From positions 1 through 38,146 of IMG/VR virus record IMGVR_UViG_3300030060_001692: a DNA stretch of 38,146 bases; one strand, 5' to 3'. Position numbers and translations under genes: made by a program. The notes under the pieces are model-generated. The model saw only the letters and a program-made list of their open reading frames with translations. It had not been told where the DNA came from and ran no database searches. This stretch comes from a virus. This document shows positions 1-38,146 of this stretch, piece after piece; within the stretch, counting starts at the first letter, position 1, and each line of letters starts with the position of its first letter.

Positions 1-1683
1 TGTCTGTCTCTTGACTGACTTACGGTCAAGTCCAAACTCACGCCAGCCTGCTGCATACTCATGATTACTGTTCTCAATAATCTTCAAGGTCTGGTCAGCT
101 ACCTGTCGGTATAGATCATTAGGTTGTTCGCAGGGTAGGCAGTTAGTTGCTGCTGCACTAGCAGGATCACGCAGTGCTAATGCATAGAGCTGTAGTCCTT
201 GGTTAGTCGCATCAATACCGATAGGTAAAGTAGTCCTAAACTTAGGATTGTCATGCATCTGAGCAAACTCACCACATGCTGCTAAAAAGAACCAAGGGTC
301 ATCCGCTTCAGTCCAGTCCATGTAGGTGAGGGGATCTCTACCTATAGATAGGAGTATCTCTTTGTTGCGATCTGCCCATGCAATACGTTGATCATAACTC
401 AACTTGTCATGGCCAAAGCTGTTGGCAAGGTGGATCATCAACCACTTAGCACCAGTCTCAGTCATCTCCATACTGTTGGAAAAACTTAACAGTGAGCGTG
501 CATACGATGGGCCTTGAGGTTGTAAGAAGTAGGGCTGTGGATAGGCTCTACCTCTGAAGTCTAAGGTCAGTGGGTAGTACACATCCTGATCTTTAAACTT
601 GTCAGCTAGGCTGAGTACACGCAGGGCATGCAGACGCTGTGATCTCTGACGCTCATTGTCAAAGTGTTGCTTGGCTGCACGTCTACGCCACTCCTTACGT
701 GACTCTTTATTCGTTTTAATATCAGTAGGTTTAGCTGGCAGTGGCTCATCTTCAGATGACACAAGTCCATCTACTGCTACACCCCTATCCCAGCAGTGCT
801 TCATCACATCAAGTACAAAGTGATTTACTTTATATGGTGTAGATTGCACAGCATTAACTGCACGGTACACCTTCGGCATATCAGCAAGTGCAACAGTGTC
901 TAGGTGTGTCTTATCTGTGGTTTTAATCAGTGGCCTACGTCGAGTAATATCAGTCGAGTAACCTCCGATGAACACATTAGTCCAAGCTAATGGACGCTCG
1001 ATCATAGGAAGGAAGACGGGATCTAATCCTTCCATATATGAGTGAGCACCCTTGAACCAAGTGATCAAATCTTCGGTTGGCTCAACCCACTGTTCAGCTT
1101 TTCCAAATTGATTTTTACGGGCAACAATATCAATCAACCCTGTTGCCTGCCTCATGAGTTCTAGGCACACGATACCTACACGTATCCTCTCCTCGGTATT
1201 CCAAGTCGGTAACACGATCTTGTGAAACCTGAGAGTCTTGTCAATGAACTTGGCCTTGTTCTGAGTGGACTTGAACCGATCCAATACTCTATTCATCTGT
1301 GCCCAGAGGGTTGAATACTCTTCTTTCAGTGTTCTATACTTGTACTCATCTTCAACTAAGTTACCTATGTGTGCTGCTGTACCCGTCATCTTCCTGCCAC
1401 CACTGATTGCATCGAGCGTGGCTCTTGCAGTCAAGGCAGCTAGTACCTTCACAGGTATCAATTCAATATAAGGTAAAGCACGATGCTTCTTACCTGCTGA
1501 ATGCTGGGCGTGGTGTATCCAGTCCTTGAAGTGATCAGCTAAAAGTACAATGCTGTTCTGTAATAATCGTTGTCCTGCCGGGTGAGTTGACTCAATGTTC
1601 AACTCGGTAGCACGAGATACCTTTGAATGATATCTCTCTCGCCCTCGATCCAACATCTCTTGCTCAAGATCTTGTTGTCGCAT
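1..1683 (-). CDS. Single-subunit T7-like RNA polymerase, N-terminal 561 codons
   Basis: DNA-directed RNA polymerase of the T7 family, the enzyme that transcribes the phage middle and late genes. This part starts at the ATG at 1683 and runs off the window start; the gene continues at 38146-37346, giving 794 aa in total (T7: 883 aa). Visible landmarks are DFRGRAYP near residues 375-382 (T7 DWRGRVYA) and GIDATNQGLQ, whose D491 matches catalytic D537 of T7. The serine/cysteine-containing stretch after that aspartate in T7 (DGSCSG) is replaced by DATNQG. The frame is open throughout. The integrase gene ends 17 bases upstream (1701), so the two genes are probably co-transcribed, as in other integrase-carrying marine T7-like phages. 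Confidence 0.96.
   Translation of the reverse strand, partial: MRQQDLEQEMLDRGRERYHSKVSRATELNIESTHPAGQRLLQNSIVLLADHFKDWIHHAQHSAGKKHRALPYIELIPVKVLAALTARATLDAISGGRKMTGTAAHIGNLVEDEYKYRTLKEEYSTLWAQMNRVLDRFKSTQNKAKFIDKTLRFHKIVLPTWNTEERIRVGIVCLELMRQATGLIDIVARKNQFGKAEQWVEPTEDLITWFKGAHSYMEGLDPVFLPMIERPLAWTNVFIGGYSTDITRRRPLIKTTDKTHLDTVALADMPKVYRAVNAVQSTPYKVNHFVLDVMKHCWDRGVAVDGLVSSEDEPLPAKPTDIKTNKESRKEWRRRAAKQHFDNERQRSQRLHALRVLSLADKFKDQDVYYPLTLDFRGRAYPQPYFLQPQGPSYARSLLSFSNSMEMTETGAKWLMIHLANSFGHDKLSYDQRIAWADRNKEILLSIGRDPLTYMDWTEADDPWFFLAACGEFAQMHDNPKFRTTLPIGIDATNQGLQLYALALRDPASAAATNCLPCEQPNDLYRQVADQTLKIIENSNHEYAAGWREFGLDRKSVKRQT
2..99. repeat. Terminal overlap of assembly, left copy
   Basis: These 98 bases are identical to the last 98 bases of the window; base 1 (t) differs from base 38048 (c). 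The repeat lies inside the RNA polymerase coding sequence, and joining the two copies restores an uninterrupted reading frame. It is therefore best read as the overlap of a circular contig and not as the biological terminal repeat of the virion DNA. Confidence 0.95.
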
Positions 1684-1700: not shown

Positions 1701-2726
1701 TTATATTAGCAGATCATCAATGTTTGTGCAGGACTCCAGCTTACTGATGTCATCTTGCAGCCTCTCAGTATTCAGGTGAGTGTACCTCTGAGTAGTAGAC
1801 AGATCTTTGTGACCGGCCAACTCCTGTATACGCCTGAGATCTGAACCATTCTGACTCAATCGAGAGCAGAATGTATGTCTCATTGCGTGAAGTATATCAC
1901 CTTTACCCATGCCAATAGAGTTGCGTACACCATGCCACTCCTTGCAGGCAGCATCATAGTTCATACTGAAGTACCAGTTATTAGTATCGGTTGATGCCAA
2001 CAACTTATGCACCCTGCTTGTCATAGGGATTGATCGAGCAGCATCATTCTTAGTCTCACCCTCATGAAGGACAATCATGTTCTTATCAAGTAACACATTG
2101 TCTCGGGTTAATCCAAGAGCTTCACTGATACGCATGCCAGTATCGAAGAGGATAACAATCAACCTAAAGAACTCAGGATTATTGTTAGCCTTGCATGCTT
2201 CAAGTATCTTACGCTGCTCATCCTCGGTGTACCAACGGAACCTAGTAGGTGGCTCACCTTGTCTAGGTATGTGAGGTACACTTGTTAGATCCTTACGTCT
2301 TGCAGAGTGATGCAGTACTACAGAAATAATACTCAGCTTTCTGTTGATCGTACCGGGACTGTTACCCATACGCTCAAGACTGATTACATACTGATCAAGT
2401 ACATCTGTTGTTATGTCAGTAAGTAAAGTCTCATCACCAATGTCAGCACGCACCTTGTTCAGTCTATTCTTAGTAGACCTAGCTGACTTCTGCTTAGACC
2501 ATTTGAGTTGCCACACTGTGTCAGCAACATGCCCAAACATTTTACCCTGAACAGTCTCAGGCTCAGGATCAGGATCTACGTCAGGACTAAGACCCTTCAT
2601 CACCCTAGCTTTAGCTTCAACCTCCCAAGCTAACGCTGCTTCTTTAGATGGTTTGTTACGTCGGTAACGCTTACCTTCATAAACAAAGTCCACCTGAAAC
2701 GATGAACCTCTTACTCGTATTGCCAT
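1701..2726 (-). CDS. int: Tyrosine recombinase / phage integrase
   Basis: Site-specific recombinase that would insert the phage DNA into the host chromosome. The 341-aa protein has a small N-terminal arm-binding-like segment (MAIRVRGSSF...), a SAM-like core-binding domain (about 65-150) and a catalytic domain. The full catalytic set is visible: R199 (GMRISEA), K226 (GETKND), H280 and R283 (HAMRH), H306 (LAGHKDL) and nucleophile Y315 (QRYTHL). The start at 2726 is chosen because GGAGGT sits four bases upstream; an upstream ATG at 2771 would add 15 residues and overlap the preceding gene. It lies directly before the RNA polymerase. No attP core or tRNA fragment was recognised nearby, so integration competence is inferred only from intact catalytic residues. 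Confidence 0.95.
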   Translation of the reverse strand: MAIRVRGSSFQVDFVYEGKRYRRNKPSKEAALAWEVEAKARVMKGLSPDVDPDPEPETVQGKMFGHVADTVWQLKWSKQKSARSTKNRLNKVRADIGDETLLTDITTDVLDQYVISLERMGNSPGTINRKLSIISVVLHHSARRKDLTSVPHIPRQGEPPTRFRWYTEDEQRKILEACKANNNPEFFRLIVILFDTGMRISEALGLTRDNVLLDKNMIVLHEGETKNDAARSIPMTSRVHKLLASTDTNNWYFSMNYDAACKEWHGVRNSIGMGKGDILHAMRHTFCSRLSQNGSDLRRIQELAGHKDLSTTQRYTHLNTERLQDDISKLESCTNIDDLLI

Positions 2727-2739
2727 ATCTACCTCCAGT

Positions 2740-2982
2740 TTAATGATCGTCCCCAACAAATACTTTGTCACTATGTTTATCCATCAGCTCCATGAATGTG
2801 TCAAGCTGACCACACTTGTTTAACTGATGGCACATCTCTTCAGCTAGATCTTCACACCCTTCATCGCACCAGTCTTGAACAAAGTGACGTGCGATTACTC
2901 GTAGCTTACCACGCTTCAACCATCGCAGACATTCATTGAGTGGTTTAGTTATAGATACTTTGTAGTCTTCAGGGTTCTTCAT
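2740..2982 (-). CDS. Small protein of unknown function (80 aa)
   Basis: Not recognised. The 80-aa protein has four cysteines in its central part (WCDEGCEDLAEEMCHQLNKCG), which could be a small metal site or simple chance. It has a basic N-terminal half and an acidic end (VGDDH). AGGAG lies just upstream of the ATG at 2982, which overlaps the stop of the preceding basic protein (ATGA). It is the last small early gene before the integrase. Confidence 0.7.
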   Translation of the reverse strand: MKNPEDYKVSITKPLNECLRWLKRGKLRVIARHFVQDWCDEGCEDLAEEMCHQLNKCGQLDTFMELMDKHSDKVFVGDDH

Positions 2983-31184: not shown

Positions 31185-31515
31185 AGTCATCCTTTTCCTT
31201 TCTCTCTACCTCAATATATGCGTAGAGAAGTATGCTGTAATTAATCAAATCGAGGATGGTATCCTCTACCTTTTCGTCAGGAACCTTATATACACCAGTG
31301 TCAATGAAGGTGATCAGGCGGGAGATCTTGTCAGTCAGTCTGACCATGAACCCCCTTTTAGTGTCCGTTATCCCTAGTCTCTCTACTCTGGTGAAGTTCA
31401 AGAAGGGGTCTTCAGCACTCTTACCCCCACTATAATCGTGATTTTTCTGGTTCATCAAGTGCCTTGCTTGACCGCATAGGCGTTCATGGATGTTTAATAG
31501 CTCATCTCTGTTCAT
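31135..31515 (-). CDS. DUF1599 / MazG-like all-alpha protein (126 aa)
   Basis: The 126-aa helical protein has KNHDYSG, FLNFTRVERLGI and a late DKISRLITFIDTG...DTILDLINYSILLYAYI, the pattern of the DUF1599 (nucleotide-modification-associated) family, related in shape to MazG-type nucleotide pyrophosphatases. It may hydrolyse or sense nucleotides. The start at 31515 overlaps the exonuclease stop (ATGA); an ATG further upstream at 31530 would add five residues. Confidence 0.8.
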   Translation of the reverse strand: MNRDELLNIHERLCGQARHLMNQKNHDYSGGKSAEDPFLNFTRVERLGITDTKRGFMVRLTDKISRLITFIDTGVYKVPDEKVEDTILDLINYSILLYAYIEVERKEKDDYEDNTYTRSQSYSSIE

Positions 31516-32276
31516 TGCTCTGGCTCCCATAGCTTTACTTCATTAGTGTCAAAGTCATAATCTGACTGGTGCATTATGCGTGCAACTCGTGCTTGCTGAA
31601 TTGCGTCTTCTTCATTCAAGCCTGCGTCTTCATATGCTTGCTTGACTGTGGCCCAGCTTGGATCAACCTTGAGTAGCTTTGCAGCAGTCTTAGGCCCAAT
31701 GCGTGGGCATCCTGAGTACCCATCAACAGCATCACCTGTCAGGGTCTGATATAAGAAATTGTAATATCCGTCTTCTACGCTGACTTCAGATATACCCTCT
31801 TCAGGTCGGTTAGGGTTGTAGTGAAGACCGGGTATTTGGAGTAGGTCTTTGTCAGTAGTAACAATCACCTTCTTTGATTTAGGGTTCCACATCTTTGTAC
31901 CCATCAGCATTCCGCATACATCATCGGCTTCAAGGGCAGGATACTCAAATGTCTTGTAAGTCTCCCTCACGTACTCCTTCATAGCGAAGAAGACTACGGG
32001 CTTCCTAGACTTCTTTCTATTTGATTTGTAAGTAGGCAGTACTTCTTTACGCCAGTTGTTAGGGCCACTCAGTGCTATCGCTACTGATGTTGCATTGAGT
32101 TTCTCTTTCAACGTAGCAAAGGCAATGTCTAATCTAAGTCTTGCTTCCTTTGCATCTGCATGCAATGTCCACAAGTCATCACCCCAGTCCACAGACTGCT
32201 CGCAGGCTAGGCAACATTCCCAAAGGAATATGTCTCCGTCAATCGCTAGGGCCGTTTTCATCATCACTGATTCCAT
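31512..32276 (-). CDS. 5'-3' exonuclease (T7 gp6-like, FEN family)
   Basis: Structure-specific 5' nuclease that removes RNA primers and degrades host DNA in T7-like phages. The 254-aa protein shows metal-binding acids in ALAIDGDIFLWE, ALEADDVCGM and VTTDKDLLQIPG, and the DNA-binding helix-hairpin part GDAVDGYSGCPRIGPKTAAKLL. T7 gp6 is 300 aa. The start could be 32276 or one of two ATGs 12-15 bases inside; none has a strong Shine-Dalgarno sequence. The gene overlaps its upstream neighbour by 38 bases. Confidence 0.93.
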   Translation of the reverse strand: MESVMMKTALAIDGDIFLWECCLACEQSVDWGDDLWTLHADAKEARLRLDIAFATLKEKLNATSVAIALSGPNNWRKEVLPTYKSNRKKSRKPVVFFAMKEYVRETYKTFEYPALEADDVCGMLMGTKMWNPKSKKVIVTTDKDLLQIPGLHYNPNRPEEGISEVSVEDGYYNFLYQTLTGDAVDGYSGCPRIGPKTAAKLLKVDPSWATVKQAYEDAGLNEEDAIQQARVARIMHQSDYDFDTNEVKLWEPEQ

Positions 32277-32460
32277 TCATTACTGCATGTTTACCAAGTT
32301 CGACCAGTCCAAGTATTGAATGGAATGGCCCTTCAAACGCAACAGTCACATCCTCGACATCATGCGTCCGATTACTTGCAGCTAAGAAGACCATAGTATC
32401 ATGGCGTTTCCTTAGCTCTTTTAATAAGTTAGGTGTAGGTATGTACTCTAAAGGTTCCAT
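32239..32460 (-). CDS. Small hypothetical protein (73 aa)
   Basis: Not firmly recognised. It reads as a small alpha/beta protein (LLKELRKRHDTMVFLAASNRTHDVEDVTVAFEGP) with an acidic end. The ATG at 32460 overlaps the stop of the homing endonuclease gene (TGATG). It lies between polymerase and exonuclease genes, so a replication-linked role is possible but not shown. Confidence 0.65.
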   Translation of the reverse strand: MEPLEYIPTPNLLKELRKRHDTMVFLAASNRTHDVEDVTVAFEGPFHSILGLVELGKHAVMNGISDDENGPSD

Positions 32461-32864
32461 CAGTACCTCAACTTTCTTAGATGGGACAGCCGATCAACCT
32501 GTGATTGCCTCATGGCTGAGTTACTTGGATATTTACCAGCATGCACAACAATCTTAGCCTGTGCATCTTTGTACTTTAGATAAGGAATAATCAGGTTTAA
32601 TACTCTCACTGCACTCTGCCCATATAACGACCATCTGAACACTGAAGCACCTTTACGTTGATAGGTAGTCACTCGACCACCTACTAACTGAGCAGGTACA
32701 TAGGCCAGACTAGGGGTGACTGATTCAACCTGAACTATAGGCGTAGTTATGAAACTCACGTATCCCTCACCATCAACAATACCTGCAAGCCAAGCCAACT
32801 CAATGTGTGTCGGCCCAACTGTTTCCGATCTTAAACTCTCCGTCGAGGGGGCATCGGAAGTCAT
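32460..32864 (-). CDS. LAGLIDADG homing endonuclease
   Basis: The 134-aa protein contains AWLAGIVDGEGYVSF (about 24-38), a clear LAGLIDADG motif, with the expected later pattern (VFRWSLYGQSAVRVLNLIIPYLKYKDAQAKIV) of a single-motif enzyme that works as a dimer. Such enzymes cut a specific DNA site to spread their own gene. The frame is open up to 33005, but the ATG at 32864 is the first that leaves a normal-size domain; it lies inside the DNA polymerase gene (65-base overlap) and has no Shine-Dalgarno sequence, so translation is probably coupled. It is free-standing: the polymerase gene has no visible intron. Confidence 0.85.
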   Translation of the reverse strand: MTSDAPSTESLRSETVGPTHIELAWLAGIVDGEGYVSFITTPIVQVESVTPSLAYVPAQLVGGRVTTYQRKGASVFRWSLYGQSAVRVLNLIIPYLKYKDAQAKIVVHAGKYPSNSAMRQSQVDRLSHLRKLRY

Positions 32865-34626
32865 AGGGTTGACCGCATTCACGCATGGCTTGTACCGCAA
32901 TCCGTCCGACATTGTGAGCCTCACTTTCCATTGCCTCAAATTGTACTTCATCATGAACATGCATGACTTGCTGGGCGAATACTCCGTCAGCTTTGATCTT
33001 CTCATTCATGAGGATCGTTGCCTTCTTCATAAGTATACTACCAGCAGATTGCAGTAGCAGGTTGAGTGCGGAGTGTTCTGATCTAATAGGTAGCCTACGT
33101 CCGTCAATAGCAGGCAACCAATCTTGAGTTTTAAGTCTGTTACTTATGGCTGACTTAAGACGCTTGAGTGCTGGAATACCATTCTCCAACATCTCCTTCA
33201 TAGTACGCCCTTCTCGTCTGCCGCCACCTACTAACCGGCCAACAAGCACATCACCAGCCCCATAAAGAGTGGCGTACATAATACCTTTACCTGCTGATCT
33301 AGACACTTTCATCTTGTCAGCATTGAACTGGTGTATGTCACCTTCCATGATTACTGATGCATACTCACCGTCATCCCACCTTGCTAGATAGTGAGCAAGA
33401 CAACGTAGTTCTAGTCCTGACATATCACATCCAACCATGACCATACCGGGAGTAGGCTTGAATAGTGACCTACATTCTTCACCATAAGGTGAGCCAATCG
33501 CAGGTACTTGGGCTAGATTTGGACGAGCATGCGAACACCTACTTGACACTGTACCTATGGTGTTTACATGGCCATGTATTCTTCCATCTCTTGATGCCCT
33601 GATCCATGACTCCTTGCCATCACTGAGCTGACCAATCCTCTTACATATAGTTAAGTAACGTGATAGTACCTTCGCTTCTTTATAGGGTAGATCCCCCAAT
33701 ACTGTTTCATCTACCTTAGCCCTACCATCACCAGTCATCTCAGTAGGTTTCCATCCATACTTCTTTATGAGGGCATTGGCAATCTGCATACGACTGCCGG
33801 GGTTGAAGGGGACTACTCTCTTCTTAAGTGGCCCCGGTATTAATCGACGCTGGACACTGTAGGGTGCATCCTTCTTACGTAGATACTTGGCATTGTTCTC
33901 AGGGTCAGTGTAGAACTGAGGTGTCTTCATCGGCTCCTCTTGGGCAGGGAAGATCTGCTGGAGTTCTGCTTCAATCTTTGTCTTCTCACCGATGAGTGAC
34001 GCATGCAGTGTAAAAGCAGCCTCCTCATCAAATTCGACACCAGTGGCTTCTTGTTCAAGGATGATGTCTCGGAAGTCACGTTCCATTTCATACACTTCTT
34101 CATTGAATGTATCCTCAATCAAGTGCCATAACTTAGTGTTGACTCTCACATCCTGCTGACAGTAAGTAGCCATTTCCTCAGTGAATACTGACCAATCTGT
34201 TTGCTTACCAAAGTCACCCTTATGTGCTCCAAGTCTGTGGCCCCATGCTTCAAGTGAGTATCGTCCTCTCAAGTTGGTAGGCATGTTCTGGTTCTGGAAG
34301 TCTGTCCTCATAATATCTGGAGCCATTATTCTGCTGGCCAGTAGGGTGTCAACAGTGGCAGCATTATTCAGATTAAGTGATGGGTACAGCTTCTCCAATG
34401 CAGGGATGTCAAACTTATCTATGTTGTGACCAATCAATCTATCAGCAAGACTTAGCTGGGCAAGGGCAGTCTTAATGTCCTTACCCTTACCATAACTGTC
34501 TGAGTAAATCTCTTCATCACCTGTGTCAGGATTAAGGATAGCAATACAGTGAACTACTTCAAGATCACTGAGTTCATCCCAGTCCATGATTGCGTTAGTT
34601 TCAATATCAAATATCAGTTGGTACAT
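32800..34626 (-). CDS. Family A DNA polymerase (T7 gp5-like)
   Basis: Replicative polymerase with proofreading. The 608-aa protein has the exonuclease motifs FDIET (D7, E9), GHNIDKFD (about 65-72) and YCQQDVRVN, and the polymerase motifs A (VGCDMSGLELR), B (RSAGKGIMYATLYGAG) and C (HVHDEVQFE, H558-D559-E560). It is about 95 residues shorter than T7 gp5, so the thioredoxin-binding insertion may be reduced or absent. The start at 34626 is chosen over 34632 because GGAGA then has spacing. Its last 65 bases also encode the start of the homing endonuclease. Confidence 0.97.
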   Translation of the reverse strand: MYQLIFDIETNAIMDWDELSDLEVVHCIAILNPDTGDEEIYSDSYGKGKDIKTALAQLSLADRLIGHNIDKFDIPALEKLYPSLNLNNAATVDTLLASRIMAPDIMRTDFQNQNMPTNLRGRYSLEAWGHRLGAHKGDFGKQTDWSVFTEEMATYCQQDVRVNTKLWHLIEDTFNEEVYEMERDFRDIILEQEATGVEFDEEAAFTLHASLIGEKTKIEAELQQIFPAQEEPMKTPQFYTDPENNAKYLRKKDAPYSVQRRLIPGPLKKRVVPFNPGSRMQIANALIKKYGWKPTEMTGDGRAKVDETVLGDLPYKEAKVLSRYLTICKRIGQLSDGKESWIRASRDGRIHGHVNTIGTVSSRCSHARPNLAQVPAIGSPYGEECRSLFKPTPGMVMVGCDMSGLELRCLAHYLARWDDGEYASVIMEGDIHQFNADKMKVSRSAGKGIMYATLYGAGDVLVGRLVGGGRREGRTMKEMLENGIPALKRLKSAISNRLKTQDWLPAIDGRRLPIRSEHSALNLLLQSAGSILMKKATILMNEKIKADGVFAQQVMHVHDEVQFEAMESEAHNVGRIAVQAMRECGQPYDFRCPLDGEFKIGNSWADTH

Positions 34627-34804
34627 AACCATTCTCCATTAACCAGTCTCTAAGCACTGGGTCTGCAACCAATGCTTCTTTCAGTTTAGGGAGGATCAAA
34701 TACTCACCCTCGTACTTCACCCTTTTAGGGCACTCTTGTTTCCCAGTTATCTTTGACAACTCGTGGGCAACATCTATCCAGCTACTTTTACCGTTGCGTT
34801 TCAT
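34607..34804 (-). CDS. Small hypothetical protein between helicase and polymerase (65 aa)
   Basis: Not recognised. The 65-aa protein begins MKRNGKSSWIDVAHELSKITGKQECPKRVKYEG and ends DWLMENGYVP. The start at 34804 lies inside the end of the primase-helicase gene (17-base overlap); the frame is open to 34837, but the extra part lies entirely in that gene. The stop overlaps the DNA polymerase start. The place between gp4- and gp5-like genes suggests a replication accessory role, without proof. Confidence 0.65.
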   Translation of the reverse strand: MKRNGKSSWIDVAHELSKITGKQECPKRVKYEGEYLILPKLKEALVADPVLRDWLMENGYVPTDI

Positions 34805-36371
34805 CGAATGGGCTGCTGTATTCGTGTAGGCGACCAATGGTCGGGTTATATTCTAAGGTTGCACACACCCCAGTGATGCCTGCATATCTATTCTTGAGTA
34901 CACGCACAGTCGTATTCATTGCTTCCAACTGATCTTGTTGGTTGCGCTCACATCCAAGTACACTGTCACTGAGTTGGCCAATAGCTGAAGAGCCACGCAG
35001 TTGACTGAGTGATGTTGCTGCACCTTCCTCGTGACCACGCCCATCAGGACGCTTGAGGTGAGATACCAGCACACAATGTATATCGGTTTCTTCTACCAAA
35101 CTTCTTAACTTTGTCATGGTATTGTCGATCATCCTACGCTCATCACCCTCTGCTAGTGCAGACACAAGGATGGATAGGTGGTCGATGAATATGAACTTAC
35201 ATCCAAGTCCCTTACACATGTACCTGACTTGGCCAAGTAATCGTGATGGGTCTTGACTACCCCAGTGGTCGTATAACACCAAGTTGCCATCACCCATTAC
35301 CTCATCGAATGCTTGCTTCTTCTCCTCATCAGATACATCAGGCATGCTGGTATGTGGGATGTTCATGTGAATAGCCATCAGGCATTCAGCAGTCTTCTTC
35401 ACTGACTCTTCAAGTGCTATGTATCCAACCTTATGTCCGTCACGTACTAAGGTGTAGGCTAGTTCACGACATACGGATGACTTACCGATACCTGTACCAG
35501 CAGTAATAGTCACCAGCTCACCGCCACGCATACCCATTAGTGATTGGTTGAAACCTTCCCAAGGGTAGGGCACTGACCAACCACTCTCATCCTTGTTGAT
35601 GTGATCCCAAAGCTCATCACCTGACACAACACCATCAGGTCTGAATGTCTTAGCCTGCCAGATAGCTTGGGTTAGTTGCTCATGCTTGCCTTTAATTATA
35701 CATTCATTAGGATCATTCTCGGGTAGGCCATGAACAATCTTACACTTACCCGGTGTCAGTAAGTGAGCACATGAGTTTGCTGCTGCCTTGCCTGCTTCAT
35801 CCTGATCGAAGCACAATATAATTTCTTGGAATGTCTCAAGCCACTCAATACTTCGAGTGATAGCTTTGCTTGCAGATGCAGCACCATTAGGTATGGATAC
35901 TACTGGCCACTTGTTGCCGAACACTTGACTGACTGACAGTGCATCAATCTCACCTTCGCATACAACAACACGCTTACCATTGGTTTCCCAGAGGTGCTCA
36001 CCAAACAAGTTAATAGACTTAGGTTCACCTAGCCAAGTGAAATTCTTATTGGCATTGCGTAACTTCTGAGCACGAAGTACACCTTTCCTGTCATGGTAGT
36101 TCGCAACCTGAACACGCTGGCCATTGTAAACACCTTGGCCATACTTCCACTTCTTGCATGTTTCTAAATTAAGACCCCGCTTCGTCAGCGGTATGTAGTC
36201 CACTTCAATCAATCCCATATCAGTTGTCTCCATACTATATGTGTCTGCCTGCTTATCTCCTTGATAGCCGCAACCGGGAGTAAAACAGTACTTCGATCCA
36301 TCCGAATAGACAGCTAGATTATTTCTGCTGCCACATTTATTGCACGGCTCATGTCGTACAAACTCACCCAT
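34788..36371 (-). CDS. Primase-helicase (T7 gp4-like)
   Basis: Bifunctional replication enzyme. The 527-aa protein has an N-terminal zinc ribbon (C10, C13, C29, C34), a Toprim primase domain (VVCEGEIDALS with E139, and LCFDQDEAG with D189 and D191) and a RecA-like helicase domain with Walker A GTGIGKSS (292-299), Walker B FIFIDHLSIL and a later VLVSHLKRPDG. Length is close to T7 gp4 (566 aa). The ATG at 36371 overlaps the RusA-like gene stop (ATGGGTGA). Confidence 0.97.
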   Translation of the reverse strand: MGEFVRHEPCNKCGSRNNLAVYSDGSKYCFTPGCGYQGDKQADTYSMETTDMGLIEVDYIPLTKRGLNLETCKKWKYGQGVYNGQRVQVANYHDRKGVLRAQKLRNANKNFTWLGEPKSINLFGEHLWETNGKRVVVCEGEIDALSVSQVFGNKWPVVSIPNGAASASKAITRSIEWLETFQEIILCFDQDEAGKAAANSCAHLLTPGKCKIVHGLPENDPNECIIKGKHEQLTQAIWQAKTFRPDGVVSGDELWDHINKDESGWSVPYPWEGFNQSLMGMRGGELVTITAGTGIGKSSVCRELAYTLVRDGHKVGYIALEESVKKTAECLMAIHMNIPHTSMPDVSDEEKKQAFDEVMGDGNLVLYDHWGSQDPSRLLGQVRYMCKGLGCKFIFIDHLSILVSALAEGDERRMIDNTMTKLRSLVEETDIHCVLVSHLKRPDGRGHEEGAATSLSQLRGSSAIGQLSDSVLGCERNQQDQLEAMNTTVRVLKNRYAGITGVCATLEYNPTIGRLHEYSSPFDETQR

Positions 36372-36762
36372 ATTCAGTTACCTCCAGTTCAATACGAGGT
36401 TCATCTCCATATTCTTTCCGTGCAAGCACGCTAATTATCTGGTCATCATCGAACCATAGGATTCTGTTTAGAACATCCAATGTCTTTAGATAGTTATCAA
36501 TGTCCCCACGAGGAGCGACCTTCTTTGTCTTCTTCGGACGAGGACAGAAGAAGGTCACATCCAAGTGTAAGGGGCCACTGAATGGCAGAAGTTCAGAGAG
36601 TTCAATACCACTGAGAAACTCTTCTGACTCTGTTCTAAACCTAGTATAGTTCTTTCCGTAATACACATGGCCTCGCCTAGTCACCCGAGGGCGTGAAGCA
36701 GGGACAGGTTTAACGGGAAGAGTAAACTCAAAAGTCGCTGTCGTGGAGAGGTTCTTCGTCAT
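36364..36762 (-). CDS. RusA-like Holliday junction resolvase
   Basis: The 132-aa protein matches the RusA endodeoxyribonuclease family: LPVKPVPASRPRVTRRG near the start, then PRGDIDNYLKTLDVLNRILWFDDDQ with D87, D89 and D105-107, and ARKEYGDEP. It resolves branched DNA. T7 has the unrelated endonuclease I (gp3) at this place. The start at 36762 (MTKNL) gives the usual family length; the frame is open to 36870 but that part overlaps the SSB gene. Confidence 0.92.
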   Translation of the reverse strand: MTKNLSTTATFEFTLPVKPVPASRPRVTRRGHVYYGKNYTRFRTESEEFLSGIELSELLPFSGPLHLDVTFFCPRPKKTKKVAPRGDIDNYLKTLDVLNRILWFDDDQIISVLARKEYGDEPRIELEVTEYG

Positions 36763-37333
36763 CAGTTGATGTATCTTCCTTGTCTTCTGCGACAAATCCA
36801 TCAACCTTGTCAAAACCAAACGAGTCAAAGTCTTGACCACCAAACTCTTTGAGATCAATAACCTGAACACTCTTCAGTAGGAGTGTGATACCTGCACCAA
36901 GTGCCGGACTGAACCAAGGATTGATGTCATATCCAACCTTGATTGTGCTGCCGCTACCGATTGAAATATCATCAGGTTTAATCATTCCACCACGACTGTC
37001 AAAGATGACTGGACGTTGTGCCCACTTCGCACCGGGCTTACCTGCCTGTGCTTTCAATGTAAACTTGAACTCAATCTCACCAGTAGGTACACCATCTTCT
37101 TCGACATGAGTTACAGAAAGAGGATGCTTCTTAACAGTCTTGCCCTGCTTCTTCTGTTCAAGATCATGATGCTCATCGTGGATCTGTTCAATGTGTTGAA
37201 GGAACTTACCACCTTCGACAGCATCTAGTCTGAGCTTTGTCTCATATGTCCCTTCAGGGTTGAATTTGGTTTCAGGTTTCGAGATCTTTGGCCAGACCGC
37301 TTTACCTGCTGGTGATGCATATTTCTTTGCCAT
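36728..37333 (-). CDS. Single-stranded DNA-binding protein (T7 gp2.5-like)
   Basis: The 201-aa protein starts MAKKYASPAGKAVWPKISKPETKF and contains KVGYDINPWFSPALGAGITL, both typical of gp2.5-type SSB in marine T7-like phages. It ends in a long acidic tail closing with HDSDF, the feature by which gp2.5 contacts the polymerase and helicase. It follows the RNA polymerase stop by 12 bases and overlaps the RusA-like gene by 35 bases. Confidence 0.92.
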   Translation of the reverse strand: MAKKYASPAGKAVWPKISKPETKFNPEGTYETKLRLDAVEGGKFLQHIEQIHDEHHDLEQKKQGKTVKKHPLSVTHVEEDGVPTGEIEFKFTLKAQAGKPGAKWAQRPVIFDSRGGMIKPDDISIGSGSTIKVGYDINPWFSPALGAGITLLLKSVQVIDLKEFGGQDFDSFGFDKVDGFVAEDKEDTSTDDEEPLHDSDF

Positions 37334-37345
37334 TGTTTATTCCTT

Positions 37346-38146
37346 TCAGGAAAAGTAGTAGTGAGCCTGTTGAACCAGCGATATATCAAGATCGCCTTGG
37401 GGTGGTGGCTCGGGTAGTTCCACCCCAGATGGTACTAAATAGTTCAGTTCGTTGTAAGTATCTCTGAGGACATTCCCACAAAATAAATTAACTGTTGCTT
37501 GTCTTGCTGCTCCACCCATGACTGGGACATTAGGTGCATGCACTTCATAGTTATCGTGAACCATCAGATAGTCATTCACTCCACCGTTGAGTGCAATGTT
37601 GATTGACTCACCCAGTAGTCCACCCATACCGTCAAGACTATGTACCCAGTTAGGGGCCATTGAGTTGACTGACTTTCTCTTGGATGGTTCACCGTTGTCT
37701 TGACGAATACGTGTCTGTCTAATCACCCCAAACACAGCAGTCTTGATGTTGAGATGTGATTGCTTCTCATAATGCATACGTACTGGCAGACCAAGAGGTG
37801 TTGTCCATTGAGGAACAATGTCATTTTCGATACAGATGGCAGCAACATCTTGCAGCCACTCCATGCCTTGTCGTGCTGCATGTACTGACATACCTATTGC
37901 TTCCCAGATCTGTTCACCTAGCCAGTTACATGGCTTGTAAGTCTCATCACCGAAAGGGTTCTCTTTACCCTTCTTTAGTTCGGCATAGAACCACTCAGCC
38001 GTGTAGTTTTTACAGGAGAAAAGTTTAGATCCATATGGCTGGGTCATCGTCTGTCTCTTGACTGACTTACGGTCAAGTCCAAACTCACGCCAGCCTGCTG
38101 CATACTCATGATTACTGTTCTCAATAATCTTCAAGGTCTGGTCAGC
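37346..38146 (-). CDS. Single-subunit T7-like RNA polymerase, C-terminal part
   Basis: This is the downstream part of the polymerase whose start is at 1683. It carries KRQTMTQPYGS (K558 and Y566 in full-length numbering, with the same 8-residue spacing as T7 K631 and Y639), TPLGLPVRMHYEKQ, APNWVHSLDG, and LMVHDNYE with H725-D726, matching T7 H811-D812. The catalytic pair would be D491 and D726. The protein ends in YYFS, recalling the aromatic FAFA end of the T7 enzyme. A methionine at 38134 is internal and not the start. SSB follows 12 bases downstream, so replication genes directly follow the polymerase. Confidence 0.96.
   Translation of the reverse strand, partial: ADQTLKIIENSNHEYAAGWREFGLDRKSVKRQTMTQPYGSKLFSCKNYTAEWFYAELKKGKENPFGDETYKPCNWLGEQIWEAIGMSVHAARQGMEWLQDVAAICIENDIVPQWTTPLGLPVRMHYEKQSHLNIKTAVFGVIRQTRIRQDNGEPSKRKSVNSMAPNWVHSLDGMGGLLGESINIALNGGVNDYLMVHDNYEVHAPNVPVMGGAARQATVNLFCGNVLRDTYNELNYLVPSGVELPEPPPQGDLDISLVQQAHYYFS
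38049..38146. repeat. Terminal overlap of assembly, right copy
   Basis: Exact copy of bases 2-99. The unique genome is therefore about 38,047 bp. The only difference at the edge (t at base 1, c at 38048) falls on the third position of a threonine codon (ACA or ACG) and is silent. Confidence 0.95.

Follow-up and report, generated by a model that had tools for sequence, protein, structure and literature searches.

The free-standing LAGLIDADG endonuclease gene that overlaps the 3' end of the DNA polymerase gene in this T7-like phage sequence is, judged by comparison with related sequences, an old, intact and lineage-wide fixture and not a recent stowaway. The window refers here to the whole 38,146 bp stretch of DNA that was analysed, and the slot to the place between the polymerase gene and the next gene or the exonuclease gene. 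We presume, giving the reading an even chance, that the gene encodes a free-standing homing-type endonuclease of the I-CreI/I-MsoI kind which has long been fixed at this nuclease slot and which selection has kept active, perhaps because it cuts competitors in co-infection.

The 134-aa open reading frame (ORF) P0003 lies on the minus strand at 32460..32864, exactly where the preliminary description had placed it, and we confirmed that it is a free-standing, single-motif LAGLIDADG ORF with an intact active site. One motif, LAGIVDGEG (32763..32789, minus strand), occurs in the 134-150 aa of the chain, as in the I-CreI-type subgroup, and carries the catalytic acid E33 (32766-32768) at motif position 8. 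In the PDB, a profile of 16 relatives (A1) matched the characterised enzymes I-CvuI (2.3e-7), I-MsoI (1e-5) and I-CreI (about 3e-3); Pfam by itself was weak (sub-threshold Hom_end, 0.23). The AlphaFold2 model had a mean pLDDT of 90 and a pLDDT of about 98 in the folded core, which runs from P0003 residue 20 onward (32460..32807, minus strand) and starts with the first helix at the polymerase stop codon, residues 1-19 being of lower confidence. Its secondary structure (H20-33 E34-38 E42-48 H52-61 E64-70 E73-81 H82-95...) follows the alpha-beta-beta-alpha-beta-beta-alpha fold of solved LAGLIDADG members, and the best match in VIA-align was I-CvuI (Z 15.1, rmsd 2.5, 116 residues); the other matches included I-CreI (Z 14.8) and I-MsoI (Z 14.6, rmsd 2.0). 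K99 (32568..32570, minus strand), the counterpart of the I-MsoI/I-CreI active-site lysine, aligned in the profile alignment with K104 of I-MsoI, which we take to be that lysine. From the profile matches, the model and the VIA-align matches, the protein has a LAGLIDADG and not an HNH fold.

The introns of I-CvuI, I-MsoI and I-CreI lie in organellar rRNA genes. These enzymes share with the phage protein the single motif, the fold (rmsd 2.0-2.7 over 116 residues) and the active-site acid and lysine; they are intron-encoded (1bp7 title), whereas the phage gene is free-standing, overlaps the polymerase gene and is about 20% identical to them. The nearest family in phage libraries is PHROG 5046 (1.5e-10 for the window protein, 4.7e-21 for that of locus L153) with the actinophage genes named LAGLIDADG (or HNH) endonuclease (e.g. 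Gordonia phage Bibwit; 30-38% identity), but many of these lie in or beside methylase genes and none at a polymerase end. PHROG 5046 is labelled HNH endonuclease although fold and motif say LAGLIDADG, and in pairs of the MH976508/NC_055774 type RefSeq says HNH where GenBank says LAGLIDADG for identical genes; the family may therefore be hidden in annotations. Cyanophage PP, a podovirus, likewise has a free-standing LAGLIDADG gene, gp36, with 33% identity to that of L115, but gp36 lies between terminase and portal, and its nearest tree rows, without support, are copies unlinked to a polymerase. The ORF adjoining gene 5 in T7, gp5.3, is presumably of the HNH type, whose fold differs from LAGLIDADG.

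The T7-like DNA polymerase A gene (32800..34632, minus strand; PF00476 3.5e-43, PHROG 17) is intact and ends in TGA. As had been proposed, ORF 32460-32864 begins within the polymerase frame, and this frame is unbroken with no Rfam match in the window, so that the endonuclease gene stands outside any intron or intein and a group I intron was ruled out. The endonuclease was in the +1 frame relative to the polymerase in 108/113 carriers, the polymerase stop was TGA in 108/113 carriers vs 18/94 non-carriers, and the +1 frame was open for at least 100 nt into the polymerase gene in 86% of carriers vs 31% of non-carriers, all contrasts between related sequences and not between independent draws. The motif lay 14 or 26 nt past the polymerase stop in most carriers. 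A programmed +1 frameshift yielding a polymerase-endonuclease fusion at the TGA stop is possible and was considered on account of this stop-codon bias, but in the +1 frame the TGA contributes the GA of a GAN codon, which accounts for the bias by the coding of an acidic residue before helix 1, and the endonuclease has a separate start with a Shine-Dalgarno sequence.

Indeed, the gene probably starts upstream of P0003, at ATG 32912, and thus extends over 32460..32912 (minus strand; P0004, 150 aa) with a 113-nt overlap with the polymerase gene (32800..32912, minus strand, +1 frame). We prefer this start to 32864 because a GTGAGG Shine-Dalgarno sequence (32919-32924) precedes it, the ATG is conserved, and synonymous change in the polymerase gene is depressed there. 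Every listed member of the window clade has an ATG at offset -112, most of those listed share the peptide MS(D/E)xLRYxxCV, and a block comprising Shine-Dalgarno sequence, start and conserved sequence lies within the polymerase gene (32888..32924, minus strand; GGATTGCGGTACAAGC). When synonymous change was binned along the polymerase gene and then resolved per codon, carriers had a pS of 0.19 (95% 0.15-0.24) at polymerase codons 26-40 from the end, vs 0.43-0.46 in their neighbouring bins and 0.45 in the empty-slot lineages. Translation must begin at another place in deeper lineages, in some of which a stop codon lies at -46 and the start candidates are limited to GTG or TTG; this start is therefore not universal. 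A phage promoter was also considered as the cause of the conserved block; the block was found once in the window, which makes a repeated promoter unlikely.

At its other end the endonuclease ORF is coupled to the next gene, as previously noted, by a TGATG (32458..32462, minus strand) in which the endonuclease stop TGA and the start ATG of a 73-aa gene of unknown function (32239..32460, minus strand) overlap. This gene forms the right border of the slot, and its orthologue directly follows the polymerase gene in the clade with empty sites. Beyond it lies a T7 gp6-like 5'-3' exonuclease gene (31512..32276, minus strand; PF02739 1.8e-12, PHROG 107 2e-61). An open 561-aa frame runs to the record end at window 1-1683, and the C-terminal part of a phage RNA polymerase (266 aa, PHROG 414) occupies 37346-38146; the two are in frame with each other, and the record therefore has the appearance of a complete genome in circularly permuted form. 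An integrase gene is present at window 1701-2771 (PHROG 1, 1.2e-53), and given this integrase, lysogeny of the T7-like phage is possible.

Loss of both motif acids, which the preliminary description would have taken as grounds for giving up its reading, did not occur: D31 and E33, together with G63, K99 and Q102, were identical in 103/103 relatives, and no short copies were found among the 103. The dN/dS of the non-overlapping part was 0.03-0.16 in close pairs, mostly above that of the polymerase (0.03-0.06) and indicative of strongly purifying selection. In one account of the homing cycle (PMC1654191), a homing endonuclease is predicted to decay once fixed, and variable presence and decay are the reported signatures of homing endonuclease genes (HEGs) in phages (PMC10448857), in contrast to the copies found here, which are intact and uniformly present among close relatives.

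We gathered polymerase loci from metagenome contigs by profile scans with three polymerase and two endonuclease alignments and obtained 316 usable loci, 207 after removal of duplicates, with 113 carriers and 94 non-carriers; carrier polymerases seeded the scans, and 113/207 is thus no estimate of prevalence. Among the close polymerase relatives (62-92% identity), 19 have a complete junction, and in all 19 the gene occupies the same position. Over the C-terminal 330 aa of the polymerase, no carrier/non-carrier pair exceeded 64% identity, while 540 carrier/carrier pairs were above 65%. Identities of gene and polymerase were correlated (Mantel r 0.85 against a permutation maximum of 0.08), nearest neighbours by the two were concordant in 96/103 cases, and no pair had endonucleases more alike than their polymerases by more than 3.5 points. 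Discordance between the gene tree and that of the host gene, and sporadic presence in near relatives that have the corresponding empty sites, both expected of a free-standing HEG, were thus not observed. Moreover, sliding identity from primase to exonuclease revealed no sharp tract of co-conversion, only faster change in the endonuclease gene. In an 81-row tree the 41 polymerase-linked copies formed one clade vs 40 unlinked copies (100/99), and in a 108-row tree they required two changes; a single origin of all polymerase-linked copies is therefore nearly, but not strictly, supported by the trees.

Empty sites were found where the preliminary description had suggested looking, in relatives without the gene: in L066 and L068-L070 the polymerase gene is followed directly by the next gene with a TGATG or TAATGA junction, and such sites occur in distant lineages only. 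The clade L066-L070 is nested among carriers (99/98 and 100/98) in a polymerase tree whose deep branches are weakly supported, and because of this nesting its empty sites look like a clean loss, the simplest reading. Next to them, L067 has about 490 bp between polymerase and next gene (L067:5704-6195) that are absent from its near relative L068 and hold an unrelated ORF of 163 aa for which Pfam gave no match; this segment is a recent insertion at that junction. The endonuclease copy of L033/L036 is 37% identical to that of L034, its polymerase sister at 85% polymerase identity, as a result of either acceleration or allele replacement. The earlier proposal that the gene arrived by insertion at the polymerase stop is plausible in so far as the fold begins at that stop and empty junctions exist, but the recent arrival it implied did not stand, since all 19 close relatives carry the gene, no mixed pair exceeds 64% identity, and gene and polymerase diverge together; a model of recent insertion was accordingly dropped after empty sites were sought in close relatives and none was found. 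A gene universal in the phage group and inherited vertically, the outcome that was to tell against that proposal, is largely what we observed. We found no isolate with the gene at the polymerase end in the phage collection, no match in the plasmid search, only distant relatives in metagenome-assembled genomes (MAGs) in the genome-contig search, and no account of this site in the open-access library searched.

In other lineages the slot holds unrelated nucleases, often in the same +1 overlapping frame. A PD-(D/E)XK_5 nuclease lies past the polymerase in L372 (3.9e-8), L109 (3.5e-10), L410 (2.6e-10), L373, L375, L376, L389 and L114; HNH was found in L082 (2e-5), GIY-YIG/T5orf172 in L091 (1.3e-9), and endonuclease VII in L101 (1.6e-15) and L076. 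A census of 121 thinned loci, with classes assigned by custom profiles, the seeds of which had been verified only in part with Pfam or PHROGs, gave 61 LAGLIDADG, 11 PD-(D/E)XK_5, 7 HNH, 2 endonuclease VII, 1 GIY-YIG, 13 PHROG 13596, 1 other and 25 with none. PHROG 13596, of unknown function, occurs just after the polymerase gene in L075, L106, L052, L097 and others, has a motif like E-V-K-x-E-R-x-W-W and may be another nuclease. In other phages, one class of HEG is reported to have taken the place of another at a fixed locus (PMC10448857), and the HEG loci of ICP1-like phages described there resemble this slot in having nucleases beside essential genes and different classes at the same locus, but in those phages the genes differ in presence from isolate to isolate and undergo decay, neither of which was seen here. 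Further, we propose with a little less than even confidence that the LAGLIDADG endonuclease has dropped out of the homing cycle and is now a core gene, dual-coded with the polymerase, vertical across a broad T7-like group, and in a dedicated slot that PD-(D/E)XK, HNH, GIY-YIG or endonuclease VII genes occupy in other lineages; the slot itself would be under selection for a phage-benefiting nuclease function.

We suggest the following course of events, which would build on the observed fold, active-site conservation, selection, fixed position and frame, co-inheritance, nested absence and exchange of slot nucleases. An intron-less single-motif endonuclease would have inserted into the polymerase gene of an ancestral T7-like phage at its 3' end and would since have been passed on together with the polymerase, overlapping it in the +1 frame and remaining catalytically intact under purifying selection. 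The protein, as expected from its single motif, would act as a homodimer and could cut the junction of polymerase and next gene in co-infecting phages with an empty slot or another nuclease; the conserved polymerase terminus would offer a broad target, and the carrier's own site would be protected through interruption by the gene. The outcome would be marker exclusion or interference, and a cut genome with sufficient homology would be converted into a carrier. This competitive benefit is modelled on PhiPA3 gp210, a homing endonuclease that gives its phage an advantage in co-infection (PMC11620839), the same mechanism as proposed here, although gp210 is intron-encoded and experimentally tested. 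Against competition, close relatives showed no presence/absence polymorphism, by which active homing is usually recognised.

The main rival is a housekeeping role, in which the domesticated nuclease would serve the phage's own replication or recombination, acting on recombination or packaging intermediates or on host DNA, and competitors would be irrelevant. We consider this possible but on the unlikely side. Strict co-inheritance with the polymerase, lineage-wide fixation, purifying selection and translational coupling within the replication operon agree with it, and T7-type endonuclease I was present in 0/54 carriers vs 46/67 non-carriers with enough upstream sequence, a contrast that is confounded by phylogeny; 31 of these 54 carriers have RusA and 23 have neither RusA nor endonuclease I (window 36364-36870; upstream of the polymerase gene elsewhere). 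Exclusion between the two nucleases as a causal link was rejected, there being too few independent events, and the exchange of the LAGLIDADG gene for four unrelated nuclease families, together with its absence in sister lineages, suggests no fixed biochemical role. Nevertheless, such a role would leave the same signature as competition, and sequence alone cannot separate the two.

We find it rather improbable that the gene is a classic selfish free-standing homing gene, still homing within or between phage lineages at a conserved site that mimics fixation. It is free-standing, lies beside an essential gene and has a HEG-family fold, different nuclease classes occupy the one locus, and the L033/L036 copy is divergent as described; yet no endonuclease pair surpassed its polymerases by the 3.5 points given above, presence never differed above 64% polymerase identity, and short copies were absent. 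LAGLIDADG proteins can take other roles, and a maturase, bI3, was among the fold matches, which would fit a DNA-binding protein, e.g. a regulator, that has lost cleavage; with all four active-site residues (D, E, K and Q) unchanged in 103/103 relatives, we regard this as very improbable. A spurious ORF or metagenome artefact, conceivable for a short ORF that overlaps another gene on an environmental contig, is next to negligible, being contradicted by more than 100 loci, a confident fold and a dN/dS well below 1; the profile E-values (2e-7 to 1e-5), the core pLDDT, the Z score of 15.1 and the low dN/dS establish that this is not a chance ORF.

Under the reading we prefer, an endonuclease long fixed and kept active, the gene has remained intact at one site and shows no trace of horizontal spread, while polymerase identity has fallen to about 40-50%. 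Such persistence despite the predicted decay offers a natural way to test if a benefit to the phage is what maintains homing endonucleases, and the unrelated nucleases exchanged in the slot serve as replicate lineages for the same question. The polymerase-tail nuclease may therefore be a good system for studying why 'selfish' cutting enzymes persist.
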